Part shown: one piece after another, positions 17,312 through 48,614 of the stretch
Position numbering within the stretch: the first letter of the stretch is position 1
Layout: every line of letters begins with the position of its first letter
Position numbers and translations under genes: made by a program
From: Cloacibacillus sp.
GTDB lineage: Bacteria > Synergistota > Synergistia > Synergistales > Synergistaceae
Assembly (NCBI GenBank): GCA_036655895.1
Contig: JAVVPF010000007.1
Span: forward strand, 1 to 64,000
Direction: 5' to 3'
Length of the DNA stretch: 64,000 nt
The notes under the pieces: model-generated
What the model was told of the DNA's origin: nothing
Databases searched by the model: none
The model's input: only the letters and a program-made list of their open reading frames with translations

Positions 17312-19735
17312 ATGGATAAAAAAATCATGGACCCTCAGGGCACAGCTTCAACATACATGAATAGAATCAGTGTTTTGAAGAACAGAGTCCTCAGCACGCG
17401 TCCGGAGATGGATTTGGAGAATGCGAGGATCTTAACGGAAAGTTTTATGGAAACAGGAGGGCTTCCCTGGGCTCTTAGAAAGGCTAAAGGCGTTTACAAA
17501 CAGTGCAGTGAAAAAACTGTCAAGATTTGGGAACAGGAATTGATCGTAGGCTGTTCTGGAAGCAAAATCCGTGCAGGTATACTTTGCGCCGATACCTGCT
17601 GGTCCGTGCTGAACGAAGAATTAGATACCATAAGTACACGCCGCTATGATCCGTTTTATCTCAGAGAAGAAGACAGAAAACTTTTTTTGGATGTCATAAA
17701 ACCCTTCTGGAACGGGCGTTCTAATTATGAAGAATGGCTGGCGCAGATACCGGATGATGTGCGCGCTCTCAGAGATAATGGAGTTATTTACATCGACCGC
17801 AAAGCCGTTCGCGGCTGGGGTGAAACAACTGCCGGATACAGCGACGTTATCAATAAAGGTATCAAAAAAATATGCGATGAGATAAAAGAACGCAGGTCGA
17901 AGCTGGATATGACGGTCCCTGGAGATTATGCGAAAATGATCTATCTTGACGCGCTGCTTATTGCCGGCGAGGGGATCATTACACTGGCGGAAAGATACTC
18001 TGCGGAGGCATATCGTCTTGCGTCAGAAGAGCACGACCCAGTGCGTAAGCAAGAATTGATGGAAATAGGACGCATCTGCGCAAAGGTCCCCGCCTATCCT
18101 GCGGAAACATTCCATGAAGCGCTTCAGTCATTTTATTTTTATCAAATTTGTATATTCATGGAACAAAACGCAGCAAGTTACAATCCCGGCCGTATGGATC
18201 AATATCTTTATCCGTTTTATAAGGCGGACATCGAAGCCGGCCGTCTAACAGAAGACAGGGCTCAGGAGCTGCTTGATTGTCTATGGGTGAAATTTGCGGA
18301 ACCTTGTCTTTTTCAGGACAAAACAACCGCTGAATTTGCAGCAGGCTACCCAATGTTCCAGAACGTCACCGTGGGCGGCGTGGATATCGCTGGTAAAAAT
18401 GCAGTGAATGAACTGTCTTATATGATATTGCAGGCAACTATGGACGTCCAGCTCTACCAGCCGTCACTTTCCGTCCGTTACAGCTTGGCAAAAAACCCAA
18501 ACTCTTTTCTTCGTAAAATTGTCGAACTGATAAAATTAGGGACAGGTTTTCCTGCGTTTCATAACGATGATATCGGCATAAGGATGCTGATGAATAAGGG
18601 CGTTCCTTTACGCGAAGCTTTTGACTGGAATCCGAGCGGCTGCGTGGAAACAAATTTGGAAGGACGTCTGAGGGGGTACACCGCCCTTGCCGATATCAAC
18701 CTCGGCTCTATGATAGAGTTTACGATGCTGAACGGAAAATGCAGGAAGTCAGGACTGCAAATATCGACTGACTCTGGAGATCCTGTTGGATTTGAACATT
18801 TTGAAGAGTTTCTTGCGGCTTTAAAAAAACAGCTGGCTTATGCAGTACATACGGTGGTCAAAGGGAGCCATTTAATTGACGAGATAGGTTTTAATCGTCC
18901 TGTACCAGCTCTTTCGTTGAGTTTTAGAGAATGTGTTGAGAAATGTTTGGACTATGCTTGGGGCGGAGCCAAATATAACACTGGAAACGGAATAATCCTC
19001 ATTGGTATAGCAGATTTGATCAACAGTATCGCGGCCGTCAAACATCTTGTTTATGATACTAAACAGATTTCGATGGACCAACTATTGACGGCGCTTGATT
19101 CAAACTTTGAGCATATGCCTGAAATCCTAAAACTTTGCAAGGACGCTCCAAAATATGGCAACGACATCGAATGGGTCGATAATATCGCAGCCGATATATT
19201 CACCTATATTGCCGATGAGATAGAGAGTTATAAGAGCCGTTTTGGCACAATGACTCCTGGCATCCTCCCAGTTTCCGGCAATACTCCGTTTGGGCTTGAA
19301 GTCGGAGCGCTGCCTTCGGGACGTCTTGCGTGGAAACCTTTGGCGGATGGCGTGAGTCCGAATGGAGGCACCGATTTTGATGGTCCGAGCGCCGTATTGA
19401 AATCTGTTGCAAAGCTTCCACATGACAGATTTGTGCAGGGGACGCTACTTAACATGAAAATAGAACCTACACTCTTCGCAACAGAGTCGGGCATTCAAAA
19501 CGTGATGGCGCTTCTTAAAACGCTTTGTTCCCTTAACATCTTTCACGTTCAATTCAACGTAATAGACCAGGAAAAACTTCTTGACGCACAAAAACATCCT
19601 GAAGAATATCAGGGACTGTTGGTAAGAGTTGCCGGCTACACCGCATACTTCACAGAATTGGGTAAAGACGTGCAGGATGAAATTATAGGGCGCACAATGC
19701 AAAGCTCGCTTTCCTCGCCACTTTCGTGCGGTTAG
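17312..19735 (+). CDS. glycyl radical enzyme, dehydratase/lyase type, substrate unknown
   Basis: An 807-residue enzyme of the pyruvate formate-lyase superfamily. The radical loop is RVAGYTAYF with Gly775, and the active-site loop is SGCVETN with Cys444 and Glu446. A single Cys followed by x-Glu is typical of glycerol, diol, choline and hydroxyproline dehydratase/lyase members and not of true pyruvate formate-lyase, which has two Cys. It works anaerobically in the cytoplasm after activation by the next gene. Neighbours (ProC-like reductase, prolidase-like amidohydrolase, ProX-like deacylase) recall hydroxyproline dehydratase loci, but the reductase is divergent, so a different cyclic or amino substrate is possible. 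GGAGG precedes ATG 17312. Confidence 0.9.
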   Translation: MDKKIMDPQGTASTYMNRISVLKNRVLSTRPEMDLENARILTESFMETGGLPWALRKAKGVYKQCSEKTVKIWEQELIVGCSGSKIRAGILCADTCWSVLNEELDTISTRRYDPFYLREEDRKLFLDVIKPFWNGRSNYEEWLAQIPDDVRALRDNGVIYIDRKAVRGWGETTAGYSDVINKGIKKICDEIKERRSKLDMTVPGDYAKMIYLDALLIAGEGIITLAERYSAEAYRLASEEHDPVRKQELMEIGRICAKVPAYPAETFHEALQSFYFYQICIFMEQNAASYNPGRMDQYLYPFYKADIEAGRLTEDRAQELLDCLWVKFAEPCLFQDKTTAEFAAGYPMFQNVTVGGVDIAGKNAVNELSYMILQATMDVQLYQPSLSVRYSLAKNPNSFLRKIVELIKLGTGFPAFHNDDIGIRMLMNKGVPLREAFDWNPSGCVETNLEGRLRGYTALADINLGSMIEFTMLNGKCRKSGLQISTDSGDPVGFEHFEEFLAALKKQLAYAVHTVVKGSHLIDEIGFNRPVPALSLSFRECVEKCLDYAWGGAKYNTGNGIILIGIADLINSIAAVKHLVYDTKQISMDQLLTALDSNFEHMPEILKLCKDAPKYGNDIEWVDNIAADIFTYIADEIESYKSRFGTMTPGILPVSGNTPFGLEVGALPSGRLAWKPLADGVSPNGGTDFDGPSAVLKSVAKLPHDRFVQGTLLNMKIEPTLFATESGIQNVMALLKTLCSLNIFHVQFNVIDQEKLLDAQKHPEEYQGLLVRVAGYTAYFTELGKDVQDEIIGRTMQSSLSSPLSCG

Positions 19736-19744
19736 GCCTCTCTT

Positions 19745-20671
19745 ATGGTCGCAACTGGGCAGGTATTACGTATCGAACGAAGTTCCAGCTATGACGGGGA
19801 AGGGTTGCGCACAGTCATCTTTCTCAAAGGCTGTCCTATGTCGTGTATCTGGTGTTCTACACCTGAATCGCAAAAAATTGTCAATGAGATTGGCTGCGAT
19901 GATGTCAAGTGTCTGCGCTGCGGGCTATGCGTCAGTTTATGCCCTAATAGGGCCTTGAGCAAAAGCGCTCAGGGGGTGCCTAAAATGGCTGACGGGAAAT
20001 GCAATGGCTGCGGTGAATGTGCGAAAAACTGTCCTACTAACGCGATTTCTTTATACGGCAAAAGTATGACCGCAGATGAAGTCGTGGCGGAGATCGCAAA
20101 AGACGAACTCTTATATTTTCACTCTGGAGGCGGCTTTACATTTAGCGGCGGGGAAGCATTGACGCAGCCAAAGTTTGTGGCGGAGGTTTTTAAACTCGCG
20201 ATGCAGCGAGGTATCTCTGGAACTATTGAGACAAGCGCGTGCGTTCCTTGGGAAAATATTGCCGCGGTCGTTCCTTTGGTACCAAAGTTTTATGTTGATA
20301 TCAAGCACATGGACCCTGTACGCCACAAAGAACTTACGGGACTTTCAAACGAAATCGTGCTTGACAATATCAGGAAAATTGACGGATGCGGATGCGATAT
20401 AACCATTAGAGTCCCTGTGATACCAACAATTAATGACGGAGAAGACAATATAAAGGCAACAGCCGATTTTTGCAGGGGATTAAAAAATATTTCCGAGCTT
20501 GAACTGTTGGCGTACCATAAACTGGGTATGATAACTTATAGAAAACTTGGAAGAAAAATGGAATTAAACCATATGGAGCCTCCTAGCAAAAACGACATGC
20601 TTCAGATAGCACGACGCCTTAAATTGACGCTGCCTAGCCTCTCTGTTAAAATCAACGGAGGTGAAATTTAA
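19745..20671 (+). CDS. glycyl radical enzyme activase (radical SAM)
   Basis: A 308-residue PflA-family activating enzyme that makes the glycyl radical on the preceding protein using S-adenosylmethionine. The radical-SAM cluster motif C-x3-C-x2-C is C30, C34, C37. It is followed by an inserted pair of ferredoxin clusters, C56/C59/C62/C66 and C86/C89/C92/C96, which is typical of activases of the dehydratase-type glycyl radical enzymes and absent in PflA itself. GGGFTFSGGEAL near residue 121 is the GGE motif. The gene starts nine bases after the enzyme's stop, with no strong ribosome site, so it is probably coupled. Confidence 0.92.
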   Translation: MVATGQVLRIERSSSYDGEGLRTVIFLKGCPMSCIWCSTPESQKIVNEIGCDDVKCLRCGLCVSLCPNRALSKSAQGVPKMADGKCNGCGECAKNCPTNAISLYGKSMTADEVVAEIAKDELLYFHSGGGFTFSGGEALTQPKFVAEVFKLAMQRGISGTIETSACVPWENIAAVVPLVPKFYVDIKHMDPVRHKELTGLSNEIVLDNIRKIDGCGCDITIRVPVIPTINDGEDNIKATADFCRGLKNISELELLAYHKLGMITYRKLGRKMELNHMEPPSKNDMLQIARRLKLTLPSLSVKINGGEI

Positions 20672-20690
20672 GATTGAAAGGTGCATAAAC

Positions 20691-21380
20691 ATGGATCCGG
20701 TATTAAATAAAGATGATGCTTTGTATACACAAATCTATGACATATTAAAAGACAGGATCATGCGTGTGGAGTATTATCCCGGTTCCTTTCTGACTGAAGC
20801 CTCTGTTGCTAAAGAGCTTAATACCAGCCGTATGCCTGTTCGTGTTGCGATGCGCAAGCTTGAGAGCGAAGGTTGGCTTTTGGCGGATTTTAGGAAAAAA
20901 ATAAGAGTACGTGAGATCACAGTTAAAGACGTCCATGAAATATACCAGCTGAGACAGTTGCTTGAAGTCTCTGCGTTAAAAGAAATTTTCAAAAAAGAGC
21001 TCACATGGGAGTACTCTTTTAAATTTGAAGAATGCCTGGTACGCCTCAAGGGTTCTGTAAATGATCAATATCAATGGGATTTTCACGAGACGGCCTTTCA
21101 TCGCGAAATAGTTAAAGCTATGGAGAGCGACAGGATAGACCGCATATATAGAAACAACCAGGACGAACTGATACGCATCGGAATGCTGTGTAATAAACAA
21201 CCGGCCCACTATGAAGTTATGCATGCGAGTATTGAGGCGTTTTTCCATGCTGTCAGAGAAAAGGATTTTGACAAAGCTCTTGAAATTTTAAACAAGGATC
21301 ACATTGAGCTTGGATATCAGATGGGGATAGACAGAATCGCCGAATTGGAAAAGCTTAAGGTGAGAAAAAAATCCGGCTGA
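20691..21380 (+). CDS. GntR-family regulator with FCD ligand domain
   Basis: A 229-residue transcription factor. The N-terminal winged helix (residues 1-75) has YTQIYDILKDRI and NTSRMPVRVAMRKLESEGWL; the helical FCD-type C-terminal domain follows, with HETAFHREIV and a second conserved His near residue 170 as expected for the metal/ligand site. FCD regulators usually repress catabolic genes and are released by an organic acid. ATG 20691 is used since GAAAGG lies about nine bases upstream, whereas an earlier GTG directly abuts its GGAG. Likely target is the inverted repeat at 17243-17261. Confidence 0.85.
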   Translation: MDPVLNKDDALYTQIYDILKDRIMRVEYYPGSFLTEASVAKELNTSRMPVRVAMRKLESEGWLLADFRKKIRVREITVKDVHEIYQLRQLLEVSALKEIFKKELTWEYSFKFEECLVRLKGSVNDQYQWDFHETAFHREIVKAMESDRIDRIYRNNQDELIRIGMLCNKQPAHYEVMHASIEAFFHAVREKDFDKALEILNKDHIELGYQMGIDRIAELEKLKVRKKSG

Positions 21381-22061: not shown

Positions 22062-23249
22062 TTAATAGAGCGAATTTTCTTTTGTTTTCATGCGCAGCTT
22101 GCCGATGAATCTTGCTATGCGCGTCATCGCCTCTTTTAGCTCTTCGATGGAGTAGGCGTAGGAGATGCGCACATGTTTGTCGCCGCAGTCGCCGAAGGCG
22201 TTGCCGGGAACGACGGCTACATTTTCAGATTTCAAAAGCTCTGTGCAGAATTCCTCTGAACCCATGCCGAACTCTGAAATGTCAGGGAAGACGTAGAAGG
22301 CGCCGTAGGGTTCAAAGCAAGGGAGCTGCATCTCTCGGAAGGCCTCCATCAGATAGCGGCGGCGCTGGTTGTAGGAGGCGGCCATCATATCGATGTCGCG
22401 GTCGCCGTTTCTCAGCGCGGAGACGGCGGCATACTGGCTCATCGTAGGCGCTGACATTATCCCGAACTGGTGTATCTTTACCATGTATTCCATTATCTGA
22501 GCGGGCGCGCAGGCGTATCCAAGGCGCCAGCCCGTCATTGCGTATGATTTTGAGAAGCCGTTGATAACGACTGTGCGCTCGCGCATTCCCGGCAGGGAGG
22601 CTATGCTTACGTGAGGCGCTTTATACGAGAGCTCGCTGTATATTTCATCGGAGATGACGAGCAGGTCGTTCTTGATTATTATAGGAACGAGCTTTTCAAG
22701 GTCCTCGCGCTCCATCACCGCGCCGGTCGGGTTGTTCGGGAAAGAGATGAGCAGCGCCTTCGTCTTCGGCGTCACGGCGGCTTCGAGCTGTTCCGGCGTA
22801 AGGCGGAACTCTGTCTCTGCGGAAAGCGATATCGGCACCGGCACCCCGTCGGAGAGCAGTATGCAGGGTTCGTATGAGACGAAGCAGGGCTGCGGAAATA
22901 CTACTTCATCGCCAGGGTTAAGGACGGCGCGCAGCGCTATGTCGATGGCCTCGCTGCCGCCGACGGTGAGTACGATCTCATGCTTCGGATCATAGCTTAT
23001 GCCGTATTTGCGGCGCATGTAGTGCGCAATTTCCTCTCTTAACTCAGGCAGCCCTGCGTTTGAGGTGTAGAAGGTGCGTCCCTTGTTCAGCGAATAGATG
23101 CCCTCTTCGCGGATGTGCCACGGGGTGTCGAAATCCGGCTCGCCTACGCCGAGCGAGATGACGTCCGGTATCTCGTTTGCGATGTCAAATAGGCGGCGGA
23201 TGCCGGAGGGCTTTATTTTTTTTATTTTGTCACAGATGAAATCTCTCAT
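22062..23249 (-). CDS. class I/II PLP-dependent aminotransferase
   Basis: A 395-residue fold-type I aminotransferase of the aspartate/aromatic aminotransferase group. The Schiff-base lysine is K234 in NGFSKSYAMTGWRLGY; SLGVGEPDFDTP, FPNNPTGAVM, and VISDEIYSELSY are the other conserved blocks. Substrate specificity cannot be read. The upstream Lrp-type regulator overlaps it by four bases (ATGA), which is common for amino acid aminotransferases under local Lrp control. AAGGTGA precedes the start codon. Confidence 0.92.
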   Translation of the reverse strand: MRDFICDKIKKIKPSGIRRLFDIANEIPDVISLGVGEPDFDTPWHIREEGIYSLNKGRTFYTSNAGLPELREEIAHYMRRKYGISYDPKHEIVLTVGGSEAIDIALRAVLNPGDEVVFPQPCFVSYEPCILLSDGVPVPISLSAETEFRLTPEQLEAAVTPKTKALLISFPNNPTGAVMEREDLEKLVPIIIKNDLLVISDEIYSELSYKAPHVSIASLPGMRERTVVINGFSKSYAMTGWRLGYACAPAQIMEYMVKIHQFGIMSAPTMSQYAAVSALRNGDRDIDMMAASYNQRRRYLMEAFREMQLPCFEPYGAFYVFPDISEFGMGSEEFCTELLKSENVAVVPGNAFGDCGDKHVRISYAYSIEELKEAMTRIARFIGKLRMKTKENSLY

Positions 23250-23743
23250 GGCGTCACCTTCATTCTCATATCTCTTCTTGGGGCCGTGAAGAGCGTGCCG
23301 TGGTCCTTGTAGCGCATAAGGACGATGTGCGTCACGGTGCTCTGCACCTCTTCCAGTACGGCGAGGCGCGAGGCGACGAAGTGCGCTATCTCCTTCATGG
23401 TGGCTTTTTTGAGTATGACGGTGAAGTCATATCCGCCGGACATGAGGTAGAGCGATTCTACTTCGGGATACTGGTAGATTTTTTCCGCGATGCGCTCAAA
23501 GCCTTCACCGCGCTGGGGGGAAACTTTAAGCTCGATGAGCGCTGAGATGGTTTCGTCGTCGGTCTTGTCCCAGTCGACAAGCGCGTGGTAGCCGCAGATG
23601 ACGCGCTCCTTTTCCATTATTTCTATCTCGTTTTTTACCTCTATGATGTCAAGGTCGAGCATAACGGCGATTTCTTTTGGAGTGTATCTGGCGTTCTGTT
23701 CAAGAAGCCGCAGTATCTCTTCCCTTATTTTGCTTTTGTCCAT
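23246..23743 (-). CDS. Lrp/AsnC-family transcriptional regulator
   Basis: A 165-residue regulator: N-terminal helix-turn-helix (IREEILRLLEQNARYTPKEIAVML) and a C-terminal RAM ligand domain with VESLYLMSGGYDFTVIL and AVLEEVQSTVTHIVL. These proteins form octamers and sense amino acids. The start at 23743 is chosen because GGAGGT lies just upstream; an in-frame extension of 21 residues is unlikely. It is co-transcribed with, and overlaps by four bases, the aminotransferase gene, and probably controls it. Confidence 0.88.
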   Translation of the reverse strand: MDKSKIREEILRLLEQNARYTPKEIAVMLDLDIIEVKNEIEIMEKERVICGYHALVDWDKTDDETISALIELKVSPQRGEGFERIAEKIYQYPEVESLYLMSGGYDFTVILKKATMKEIAHFVASRLAVLEEVQSTVTHIVLMRYKDHGTLFTAPRRDMRMKVTP

Positions 23744-24002: not shown

Positions 24003-24356
24003 TTATTTTAGCAGAGCGGCGCTCCATTCGTCCTCTTTGAACCCGGCAAGCGCGCCTCCGTCGCAGACGAGCAGCGGACGCTTGACCAGCATTCCGTCTG
24101 AGGAAAGCAGCTTTATCTGTTCCGCCTCTGGCATCTGCGGCAGCTTGTCTTTTAGGCCCAGCTCTTTGTATGAATTGCCGCTCGTGTTGAATAATTTTTT
24201 TAGCGGCAGTTTCGAGGCGGTGAGTATATTTTTTATCTCATCCTCGTTTGGGCCGTCGGTCTTTATGTTGCGCTCTTCAAAGGCGACGTGGTGTTCTTCA
24301 AGCCATGCACGGGCTTTTTTACAGGTGCTTCACTGCGGGTAGCAAAATAACAGCAT
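24003..24356 (-). CDS. ArsC/Spx-family oxidoreductase, probable selenoprotein (in-frame UGA = Sec9)
   Basis: Read through one TGA (24330-24332), this is a complete 117-residue thioredoxin-fold protein of the ArsC/Spx/YffB family: the start CYPQ-U-STCKKARAWLEEH, then EERNIKT, LPLKKLFNTSG, YKELGLKDKLP and SDGMLVKRPLLV with the expected ending. The TGA falls exactly at the catalytic Cys of the Y-P-x-C-S-T-C motif, giving U9-x-x-C12. No other stop interrupts the frame and the protein is conserved on both sides, which argues against decay. ATG 24356 has GGAGG eight bases upstream. The role is probably a thiol/selenol reductase; arsenate reduction is not shown. Confidence 0.82.
24300..24316 (-). 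promoter_or_regulatory. candidate bacterial SECIS hairpin
   Basis: On the minus strand AAGCC-CGTGCAT-GGCTT forms a 5-bp stem with a seven-base loop. The loop begins 19 bases after the UGA and has G at its second position, which agrees with the general bacterial SECIS model (loop 16-37 bases downstream, G among the first two loop bases). Confidence 0.6.
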
Positions 24357-24420
24357 TTTACGGGCCTCCATGTTTTTAGACGTGATGCAGTTATGATACA
24401 TCAAACGCGGCGTTACGCAA

Positions 24421-24458
24421 GAAAAGACGTTCCCTCGCCGTTTGCGCGAGGGAACGTC
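24421..24458 (-). terminator. terminator of the Mrp ATPase gene
   Basis: A perfect 13-bp stem (24426-24438 with 24446-24458), followed on the minus strand by TTTTC. It lies 38 bases after the stop codon of the Mrp gene and before the selenoprotein gene. Confidence 0.82.
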
Positions 24459-24495
24459 CGTTGGCTCTTCTTTATCTCCGCGCTATCGGCGGACT

Positions 24496-25326
24496 TTAGT
24501 TTAGGGACTCTATTTTTTTTATCGCGGCGTCCAGCGTCTGCGGGATATAAAATTCTATGTTGCCGGAGTCGCAGAGGGCGGCTATTTCTGGTGAGATTGG
24601 TATCTGCCCCAGGAAATCTATGCCGTATTTCTCCGCTGTGGCCGCGGTCTTTCCCTCGCCGAACGGGAAGAGTTTTTTGCCGCAGTCTGGACACTCCAGA
24701 TAGCTCATGTTTTCAACGATGCCGAGGATGGGGATGTTCATCTCTTTTGCCATGCGCATCGCCTTTTCGACGATCATCGAGACAAGCTCCTGCGGCGAGG
24801 TGACGATGATGATGCCGTCTACGGGGAGCGACTGGAATACTGTAAGCGGCACGTCGCCCGTTCCCGGAGGCATGTCGACGAACATATAATCTTCGTAGCT
24901 CCATATTACGTCGCTCCAGAACTGTTTGACGACGCCGGCGATAGCGGGGCCGCGCCAGATTACGGGGGTCGCCTTGTCTTCTACGAGCAGGTTGACGGAG
25001 ATCATGTCTATGCCGCTCTTTGAGTGCTGCGGCACTATCCCTGAGGCGTTTGCGGAGGCGAGCGCCTCTACGCCGAACATTTTAGGTATAGACGGGCCTG
25101 TGATGTCCGCGTCAAGAATGGCGCACTGGCTGCCTTTTCTCTGCATCGCGGAAGCAAGAAGCGAAGTGACGAGCGATTTGCCGACGCCGCCCTTTCCGCT
25201 GACTACGCCTATCACTTTTTTAACGTCGCTCAGCGCGTTGGCCGGCGCGCTGAAATCAGGCCGCTCCGCCTCGGAGCACTTTTGACCGCAGCTTCCGCAG
25301 TCATGCGTACACTCTTCATTTGCCAT
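24496..25326 (-). CDS. mrp: Mrp/NBP35-family iron-sulfur carrier ATPase
   Basis: A 276-residue P-loop protein that carries and transfers Fe-S clusters. It has the deviant Walker A GVVSGKGGVGKSLVTSLLA near residue 42 with the signature lysine, GPSIPKMFG, DMPPGTGDVPLT and the C-x2-C pair in LECPDCGKKLFPFG that holds a bridging cluster. The N-terminus carries a Cys cluster (CTHDCGSCGQKC, residues 5-16) as in NBP35-type proteins, and not the MIP18 domain found in many bacterial Mrp proteins. AAGGAGA precedes the start. It stands alone between two terminators or gaps. Confidence 0.9.
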   Translation of the reverse strand: MANEECTHDCGSCGQKCSEAERPDFSAPANALSDVKKVIGVVSGKGGVGKSLVTSLLASAMQRKGSQCAILDADITGPSIPKMFGVEALASANASGIVPQHSKSGIDMISVNLLVEDKATPVIWRGPAIAGVVKQFWSDVIWSYEDYMFVDMPPGTGDVPLTVFQSLPVDGIIIVTSPQELVSMIVEKAMRMAKEMNIPILGIVENMSYLECPDCGKKLFPFGEGKTAATAEKYGIDFLGQIPISPEIAALCDSGNIEFYIPQTLDAAIKKIESLN

Positions 25327-28884: not shown

Positions 28885-30957
28885 TTATTTAAACCGAGTT
28901 GCACGTGTGGAGTTTAGAATGGCAAGCAGCGCCACCCCGACGTCGGCGAATACCGCCTCCCAAAGCCCGGCAAGCCCCGCTATTCCCAGTATAAGGAAGG
29001 CGCCCTTTACGCCAAGCGCCATTACTACGTTTTCCCATACGATTATTCTTGTTTTTTTCGCGATCCGCAGCAGTTCCGCCACCTTTGACGGCGAGTCGTC
29101 GAGAATCACGGCGTCCGCCGCTTCGACCGCAACCTGCGAGCCAAAGCCGCCCATTGCGATGCCCGTCTCCGATGTGACGAGCACGGGGCCGTCGTTCACG
29201 CCGTCTCCGACGTATATAGTTTTTTTAGTGTCGCCGCCGCATAGCTCTTTCAGCGCGTCAACCTTGTCGCCCGGCAGCAGTTCCGCCTTGAATCCGTCAA
29301 GCTTCACGGCTGCCGCTACGCTCGCCGCAGTCTCTCTGCGGTCTCCGGTCAGCATATAGACGTTTCTTATGCCAAGCTCGTGCAGCTCGCGCACTGTGCG
29401 CGCCGCGTCGTCACGGATGGAGTCGGCAACGATTATAGAGCCGATGTATTTTTCGTTCTTCACGACGTGGACGATCGTTCCGTGCCCTTCGACTTCGGGC
29501 GCTTTCACGCCGTATTCGTCAAGCAGAGCAGCATTGCCCGCGAGTATCGTAACTTGCCCCTCTTTATAGATCATTCCCCTGCCGGGCGCCTGAGTTATGG
29601 AAGCTCCGGCCGGCAGAGGATGTTCCCCCGCCGCAGCCGATATTGCGGCCGCCACCGGGTGCGTCGAGCCGCTTTCGGCAAGCGCCGCCGCCTCAAGCAG
29701 CTCCTCGCAGGTTACGCCGCAGGCTGGCGCAATCTTTGCGATGGTGAACTTGCCGTAGGTGAGCGTGCCGGTCTTGTCAAAGACGGCTATCTCGACGTTT
29801 CCAACGGCGTCGAAGACGTTCGCCCCCTTGACGAGGATGCCGTTCTTCGAGGCGGCGCCGATGCCGCCGAAATATCCAAGAGGGATGGAGATGACGAGCG
29901 CGCAGGGGCACGAGATGACCAGAAGCACCAGACCGCGGTATATCCACTCATGCCACGTGCCGTGGCCCAAAAGCGGAGGCAGCGTCATTACGGCGGAGGC
30001 GAGGAAAAAGACCGCCGGCGTGTACCATTTCGAGAACCGCGTTATAAAGCGTTCCGTCGGCGATTTATGTTCGACCGCCTGCTGCACCATCTCCAGCATC
30101 CTCGAGATGGTGGAATCCTCAAACGGGCCGGCCGCGCGTATCAGCAGCACGCCGTCCAGCGAGAGCGTACCGCCGTGCACCCTTGCGCCTGCGGAAGAAT
30201 ACACGGGCATAGATTCGCCAGTTATAGCAGATGCGTCTATCTGCGCGGCGCCGCTGATTATCTCGCCGTCGATTGGTATTATTTCCCCCGGCAGCACCTG
30301 CACTATGTCGCCTTCCGCTATTTCCCCCGGGTCCGTATCTATTATTTTGTCGTCCACCACAAGACGCGCTGTCATCGGTTTCTGGGCCAGCAGCGCCTTT
30401 ATGGAACGGCGCGAGTTTGATGAGGCGCGCTCCTGAAAGGCCTCGCCCAGCCTGTAAAAGAGCATGACGCCCACAGCCTCCGACATCTCGCCTATGGCAA
30501 GAGCCGCAAGCGTAGCGCCGCCCATCAGCGTGAACTCGTTGAAGAGGTCTCTGCGCACGACGGCGCGCAGCATCTGGCGCAGCACAGTCCAGCCCGTGGC
30601 CGCGTAGAGCGCGACAAAGAGCGCGTCAAAAGCCCATTTAGGGGCTATGCCGGGCGCAAATTCCTCCGCGGCAAGCGCCGCGAGAAAAATAGCGCCGCAT
30701 ACCGCAAGAAAAATCAGCTCGCGCCGAAATTCGCCTTGCTCCTCTTTCTCGTCGGCTTCGTTTTCCGCAAATATATTGTCAACTACGTGGCACGAGGCGC
30801 AGCCGCAGGCCGTGTCGTGTCCGTGCACATGGTGGTGCGCGCACTCGACATCTTCACAGGCGCCGCAGCGTTCGGCGCTTTCTGCGCAGTGTTCGTGCGT
30901 GTGGACGTGCTCCTCTTCGTGACAATGTTTATCTTCGTGCTCGTGATTGCAGCTCAT
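28885..30957 (-). CDS. CPC-type heavy-metal P-type ATPase (Zn/Cd/Pb type)
   Basis: A 690-residue metal-exporting ATPase of the inner membrane. The ion-site motif is SCPCALVISIPLG, and DKTGTLT carries the phosphorylated Asp near residue 393; TGES, HP in SGSTHPVAAAI and GDGVND are also present. Instead of ordinary HMA domains, the first 60 residues form a His/Cys-rich metal-binding tail with repeated His-Glu and C-x2-C elements. The CPC motif with this tail suggests Zn2+, Cd2+ or Pb2+ export. No metalloregulator gene is adjacent. GGAGG lies upstream of the start. Confidence 0.92.
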   Translation of the reverse strand: MSCNHEHEDKHCHEEEHVHTHEHCAESAERCGACEDVECAHHHVHGHDTACGCASCHVVDNIFAENEADEKEEQGEFRRELIFLAVCGAIFLAALAAEEFAPGIAPKWAFDALFVALYAATGWTVLRQMLRAVVRRDLFNEFTLMGGATLAALAIGEMSEAVGVMLFYRLGEAFQERASSNSRRSIKALLAQKPMTARLVVDDKIIDTDPGEIAEGDIVQVLPGEIIPIDGEIISGAAQIDASAITGESMPVYSSAGARVHGGTLSLDGVLLIRAAGPFEDSTISRMLEMVQQAVEHKSPTERFITRFSKWYTPAVFFLASAVMTLPPLLGHGTWHEWIYRGLVLLVISCPCALVISIPLGYFGGIGAASKNGILVKGANVFDAVGNVEIAVFDKTGTLTYGKFTIAKIAPACGVTCEELLEAAALAESGSTHPVAAAISAAAGEHPLPAGASITQAPGRGMIYKEGQVTILAGNAALLDEYGVKAPEVEGHGTIVHVVKNEKYIGSIIVADSIRDDAARTVRELHELGIRNVYMLTGDRRETAASVAAAVKLDGFKAELLPGDKVDALKELCGGDTKKTIYVGDGVNDGPVLVTSETGIAMGGFGSQVAVEAADAVILDDSPSKVAELLRIAKKTRIIVWENVVMALGVKGAFLILGIAGLAGLWEAVFADVGVALLAILNSTRATRFK

Positions 30958-42341: not shown

Positions 42342-42364
42342 ATATGCACAAATCAAATAAGTAC

Positions 42365-42498
42365 TGCGGATTTTTGGGAATCAGGTGAAAAACCTGAACG
42401 GCCCCGCCACTGTAACCGGGACGAAAGCGCATATGCCACTGAAGAGATTCGGGAAGGCGCGCCAGTAGGACGAACGGAAGCCAGGAGACCTGTCCGCA
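42365..42498 (+). promoter_or_regulatory. cobalamin riboswitch 1 (before mutA)
   Basis: A full B12 riboswitch aptamer. The outer stem pairs TGCGGA (42365-42370) with TCCGCA (42493-42498); the core has GGGAATCAGGTG, CCCCGCCACTGTAACCGGG and the B12 box GAAGCCAGGAGACC near 42477. After the aptamer, GCGGGCGG (42523-42530) can pair with CCGCCCGC (42584-42591), which would break the terminator stem at 42583-42598. So it should control transcription. In most cases B12 binding turns such genes off. Confidence 0.95.
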
Positions 42499-42582
42499 AC
42501 AGAGAGTTGAGACAGTTTCTGCGCGGGCGGAGATTGCCGCTTTGCGTCACACTCCTTCCTCTTCGACGCATAAACTCACAAG

Positions 42583-48372: not shown

Positions 48373-48395
48373 ATATTACAAGAGTTTAATTAGCA

Positions 48396-48529
48396 TCGTG
48401 GATTTGGGAATCAGGTGAAACGCCTGAACGGCCCCGCCACTGTAACCGGGACGAAAGCGCACGTGCCACTGAAGAAATTTGGGAAGGCGCGCAAGTAGGA
48501 TGAACGGAAGCCAGTAGACCTATCCGCGA
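48396..48529 (+). promoter_or_regulatory. cobalamin riboswitch 2 (before btuFDC)
   Basis: A complete B12 aptamer closely related to riboswitch 1, with TCGTGGA/TCCGCGA as outer stem, GGGAATCAGGTG, CCCCGCCACTGTAACCGGG and B12 box GAAGCCAGTAGACC near 48507. The antiterminator GCGGGTGG (48553-48560) can pair with CCGCCCGC (48616-48623) and so exclude the terminator at 48615-48630. It should shut off cobamide uptake genes when B12 is plentiful. Confidence 0.95.
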
Positions 48530-48614
48530 TAGAGGATTTGGACACTTTCCGCGCGGGTGGAGATTGTCGCTTTGCGTCTGAGGCGTACGCCAGTCTGACG
48601 CATAAACTTCCCAA

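Follow-up and report, generated by a model that had tools for sequence, protein, structure and literature searches.

The minus strand of the window (the whole stretch of 64,000 nucleotides analysed here) carries a gene at positions 24003–24356 that very likely encodes a 117-residue selenoprotein with a thioredoxin fold, in which the UGA at codon 9 would be read as selenocysteine (Sec). The locus shows the features by which bacterial selenoproteins are recognized: an in-frame UGA, conserved coding sequence on both sides of it and Cys at the same position in homologues. According to the proposed mechanism the ribosome would decode codon 9 as Sec via SelB and tRNA-Sec, assisted by a compact putative SECIS hairpin within the coding sequence. 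Sec9 and Cys12 would then constitute a U-x-x-C redox pair, which may cycle between a selenolate–thiol and a selenenylsulfide state. Sec insertion in the living cell is predicted here from sequence comparisons.

An ArsC/Spx-fold gene with a single in-frame TGA

The reading frame extends from an ATG at 24356–24354 to a TAA at 24005–24003 on the minus strand, which the earlier note had left out, and comprises 117 codons with a single in-frame TGA at 24330–24332 (minus strand). This codon corresponds to residue 9, where the CxxC motif begins; with TGA translated as Sec the N-terminus of the protein reads MLLFCYPQUSTCKKARAWLEEHHVAFEERNIK, with the motif CYPQ-U-STC around residue 9. Cys12 (24321–24323, minus strand), the second residue of the UxxC motif, is invariant in the orthologue alignment; Cys5 (24342–24344, minus strand) is invariant in the aligned orthologues of the same taxonomic family and variable in Clostridia. 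A ribosome binding site, GGAGG, is located 8 nt 5′ of the ATG (24365–24369, minus strand). Since an alternative in-frame ATG five codons upstream overlaps this site, 24356 is the likely start. The earlier note had described a complete ArsC/Spx-fold gene cut by one TGA at the site of the family's catalytic Cys, with a ribosome site upstream and both flanks kept in frame. This description holds in all parts: profiles match across both sides of the TGA, homologues carry Cys at residue 9, and in relatives with 50–65% identity the frames are intact 3′ of the TGA. Standard annotation likely truncates or drops such a gene.

The conserved upstream neighbour encodes an Mrp-type iron-sulfur carrier ATPase (24496–25326, minus strand) and is followed at its 3′ side by a strong terminator-like hairpin with a 14 bp stem (24425–24459, minus strand), so that the Sec gene is probably transcribed as a separate unit. 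Downstream, an Lrp/AsnC-family regulator (23246–23743) and a PLP-dependent aminotransferase (22062–23249), both on the minus strand, are conserved as well. The window also contains a heavy-metal P-type ATPase (28885–30957, minus strand; TIGR01525, 508 bits); in many relatives its orthologue is found at a distance of no more than a few kb from the Sec/Cys gene. On the plus strand at 17312–21380, a glycyl-radical-enzyme-like protein, a radical-SAM activase-like partner and a GntR-type regulator, all named from sequence, stand in a row. An Rfam gathering scan of the window returned only two cobalamin riboswitches, both on the plus strand (42351–42511, 94.8 bits; 48382–48542, 80.2 bits). Apart from this gene, a split-frame search of the window for Sec genes gave candidates that resembled chance frames.

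Profile searches assign the protein to the ArsC fold: Pfam ArsC (PF03960) matches with an E-value of 6.7e-19 on both sides of the TGA, and the NCBIfam model TIGR01617 (arsC_related, Spx/MgsR family) is reached over nearly the full length with 107 bits (cut-off 75) and is matched by all 21 aligned orthologues. The AlphaFold2 model has a pLDDT of 94.5. Its best match among solved structures is 3gkx (Z 21.2), an ArsC family related protein from Bacteroides fragilis with 50% identity and the same motif context, but in the Cys form. The next matches are 2m46 and 3fz4; the titles of the three entries speak of putative ArsC-family proteins or leave the function unnamed. Spx structures follow with Z ∼17 and 32% identity, E. 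coli ArsC structures are much further off (Z ∼14). Gly52 of Spx contacts the alpha-CTD of RNA polymerase. The window protein carries Pro51 at this position and stays below the cut-off of the Spx models. The YusI subfamily is described as lacking Gly52 and bearing an RP(I/L) motif, and its mode of action is not established (PMC11481553). With no Gly52, a CxxC-type motif (U-x-x-C) and an RP motif (conserved KRP), the protein conforms to the YusI branch within the Spx-like group; by these comparisons it would be neither a canonical Spx nor an ArsC arsenate reductase.

The PF03960 fold, the frequent annotation of relatives as ‘arsenate reductase family protein’ and the P-type ATPase in the wider conserved neighbourhood could point to an arsenate reductase that detoxifies arsenic instead of a general thiol-disulfide protein or regulator. 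We consider this quite unlikely, as the arsenate reductase model TIGR00014 yields only 41 bits (cut-off 106), identity to the E. coli ArsC structures is merely 15–16% and the adjacent genes that were profiled are not arsenic genes. Arsenate reduction is thus the least supported of the candidate roles.

Sec machinery and Sec/Cys exchange among relatives

The earlier note had proposed a genome search for selA, selB, selC and selD and had regarded a lack of selB or selC as speaking against Sec insertion. In the genome (2.9 Mb, a 160-contig draft, 99% complete) we found SelA, SelB, SelD and tRNA-Sec. The tRNA-Sec has a UCA anticodon and scores 76 bits (cut-off 47); in profile searches selB (366 bits) and selA (566 bits) adjoin each other on the window's own contig. 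The two genes lie at G000:C7:74478–77785, at a distance of about 10 kb from the end of the window. The selD gene (L041, G000:C3:80102–81028; 322 bits) carries one in-frame TGA, hence SelD of this genome is probably a selenoprotein as well. As an ordinary stop codon TGA is in use too: 5 of 35 long non-overlapping ORFs in the window terminate with it.

Orthologues were found in 32 of 53 genomes of the taxonomic family, and no match was obtained in nine sister families of the same order, from which 24 genomes were searched. Within the family, residue 9 is encoded by TGA at 17 of 31 scorable loci and by a Cys codon (TGC/TGT) at the other 14. Outside the family 80 loci, mostly from Clostridia, comprise 78 with Cys and two with TGA (L082 and L092), and both genomes of the latter encode SelB. 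Every one of the 111 scored loci therefore encodes residue 9 with either TGA or a Cys codon, and the Cys/Sec exchange for which the earlier note had suggested aligning homologues is evident within the family. SelA/SelB scored above cut-off in 16 of the 17 Sec carriers vs 6 of the 14 Cys carriers of the same family (p=0.004); the genome of the remaining Sec carrier is 55% complete and contains SelB-like fragments.

A maximum-likelihood tree requires 10 Sec/Cys changes, in either direction, at least 5 of which are forced by well-supported branches. On this phylogeny the residue-9 codon is one that has been swapped repeatedly between Sec and Cys among related genomes. Three genera (g9, g14 and g16) each contain one species with Sec and a sister species with Cys at the same locus, and all six genomes encode SelB. 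In these pairs the gene always follows the mrp-type gene that precedes it in the window as well, with the Lrp-aminotransferase pair mostly on its 3′ side where the contig is long enough; these shared neighbours indicate that the exchange took place in situ. A search of a plasmid collection returned only relatives under 60% identity. Cys forms also occur in records titled Methanosphaera or Methanobrevibacter (L068, L114, L119 and L127), which would reflect either a gene that gut methanogens acquired laterally or contigs binned to the wrong genome.

UGA is recoded to Trp or Cys in some lineages, and codon 9 might likewise be decoded as Trp, as Cys or by near-cognate suppression instead of as Sec. 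We regard this as very improbable, given the use of TGA as a stop in the window, the dedicated tRNA-Sec, SelA, SelB and SelD of the genome, an exchange that is always with Cys and a SECIS signature, described below, that tracks the TGA. A sequencing error in an ordinary Cys gene is even more improbable: the TGA is one base away from the Cys codons TGC and TGT and the assembly is a draft, but 17 family genomes and 2 from Bacillota share this TGA, and the window gene has a Sec-specific codon pattern (GCC and the loop G, see below) that is absent from most Cys orthologues. An error that had replaced a Cys codon, which the earlier note had raised as an objection, is for practical purposes ruled out because 17 genomes share TGA at the same codon. 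Equally improbable is a pseudogene in decay after a nonsense mutation, for which a lone stop near the start would be a common first lesion, as the frame is fully open after the TGA at the identity to relatives given above, the ribosome site and the invariant residues are retained, and close relatives, in which the earlier note had considered frame decay, have intact frames downstream of the TGA.

A candidate SECIS hairpin 3′ of the TGA

Codon 9 is very likely read as Sec, and a candidate SECIS element lies downstream of it. The hairpin AAGCC-CGUGCAU-GGCUU covers bases 14–30 after the UGA (24300–24316, minus strand); bases 14–18 pair with bases 26–30, which results in a 5 bp stem, a 7-nt loop (CGUGCAU, bases 19–25, 24305–24311, minus strand) and a spacing of 18 nt. 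The earlier note had placed the beginning of a hairpin 19 bases after the TGA; this is correct for the loop, but the stem already starts at base 14. The bSECIS model describes a loop of 3–9 nt, a stem of 4–16 bp, a distance of 16–37 nt from the UGA, a G within the first two loop bases and a folding energy of −7.5 kcal/mol or lower (PMC13188914). The window hairpin agrees with this geometry in loop, stem, G position and spacing, but with about −5 kcal/mol it falls short of the energy limit of the model (PMC13188914). A region of 56 nt reaches −8.9 kcal/mol, yet this is not lower than in shuffled sequences, and the hairpin alone is no more stable than shuffles (z = 0.24). Furthermore, a hairpin that conforms to the model and has −4 kcal/mol or lower is found 3′ of around one quarter of the TGAs in the window. 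We rejected a SECIS assignment based only on the window sequence, since the hairpin is shuffle-like and such hairpins follow many TGAs. From the bacterial SECIS search suggested in the earlier note the geometry and the G-containing loop can be retained, but not a distinction from shuffles, and only the comparative signal counts because the single-sequence hairpin is unremarkable.

This signal was observed in the orthologues. All 17 Sec genes of the family have an unbroken stem of 4–6 bp and a 7-nt loop whose fourth base is G, whereas among the Cys orthologues the top pair is broken in 6 of 14 and the loop G at position 4 is absent in 8 of 14. The top pair is formed by the codon of Ala15; this codon is GCC in 17/17 Sec genes vs 3/14 Cys orthologues (p=4e-6), and vs 25/91 of the other Ala codons in the Sec genes (p=9e-9), both being Fisher p-values that ignore kinship among the genomes. 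The telling base is the third (wobble) base of this codon, which is free of protein constraint. The starred branches of the tree leave only 5 independent Sec/Cys pairs, too few for significance; GCC at Ala15 differs in the expected direction in 2–3 of them, almost never in the opposite one, and is otherwise unchanged. Compared with the window gene at identical residues, Sec genes use the identical codon at a rate of 0.74 in the SECIS region and 0.46 in the rest of the gene, Cys orthologues at 0.24 and 0.53, respectively. In a 16-sequence alignment pairing, two-sided changes and covariation score were higher than in any of the 500 shuffles or slid controls, and the innermost hairpin pair was found as GC, CG, AU and UA.

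The Cys copies of the three within-genus pairs have retained the element to different degrees: it is mostly kept in L019, L016 has the stem without the loop G and in L010 the stem is broken. Related genomes tend to lose the RNA signal along with the Sec codon. In Clostridia bacterium DTU068 (L082) the best model-conforming hairpin is found further 3′, with its loop 29 nt after the UGA, and this different place suggests that its SECIS evolved separately.

Known relatives and possible roles

ArsC-like selenoproteins with a UxxC motif were reported in 2008 from the marine metagenomes of the Global Ocean Sampling (PMC2398784) and are included in later reviews (PMC9312934, PMC13188914); in 2016 Synergistetes were listed among the selenoprotein-rich phyla (PMC5029168). 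The window gene is very probably a real selenoprotein gene and, in view of the earlier UxxC proteins, not an unprecedented one. The ‘Arsenate reductase 2’ proteins of the 2008 study (cd03032, PMC2398784) share the ArsC-like thioredoxin fold, Sec as the first residue of UxxC and more numerous Cys homologues; they differ in their marine metagenome source, and the comparison is one of descriptions only. The ArsC_rel_Se_1 family (NF041106, PMC13188914) likewise consists of ArsC-like selenoproteins with UxxC, but with a score of 23 bits, below the cut-off of 85, the window protein belongs to another subfamily. OseR of C. difficile, a member of the YusI subfamily, was found in a 2024 study to repress oxygen-reductase genes (PMC11481553). 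Like the window protein it is a short Spx/ArsC-fold protein with a redox Cys position and an RP motif and without a Gly52 equivalent. In contrast, the window protein has Sec in place of this redox Cys and a UxxC motif, whereas OseR retains only the first Cys of the motif (CxxV; PMC11481553). A literature search for the function of SACOL0876 yielded nothing.

The most likely role of the protein would be thiol/disulfide exchange or redox sensing in the oxidative stress response of an anaerobe. The earlier note had called it an enzyme, which it may be; we use the word tentatively because the activity of the YusI branch is not established and the branch includes a transcription regulator (PMC11481553). 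A Sec-based redox-sensing transcription regulator of the OseR/YusI type, in which Sec would take the part of the sensing Cys, is possible, although we would not expect it, and a simple function in thiol-disulfide chemistry is no less likely. We know of no selenoprotein transcription regulator, and a full-text literature search found none, which is weak evidence.

Sec9 as predicted here would add a well-supported selenoprotein gene to a branch of the Spx/ArsC superfamily where none of the curated selenoprotein models compared here reaches its cut-off. The three within-genus Sec/Cys pairs, in which all genomes encode SelB, offer a natural experiment on what Sec buys as well as on the decay of the SECIS element after a switch to Cys. 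If the protein is indeed a regulator, the exchanges between Sec and Cys within a genus would tune the redox threshold of its regulon.
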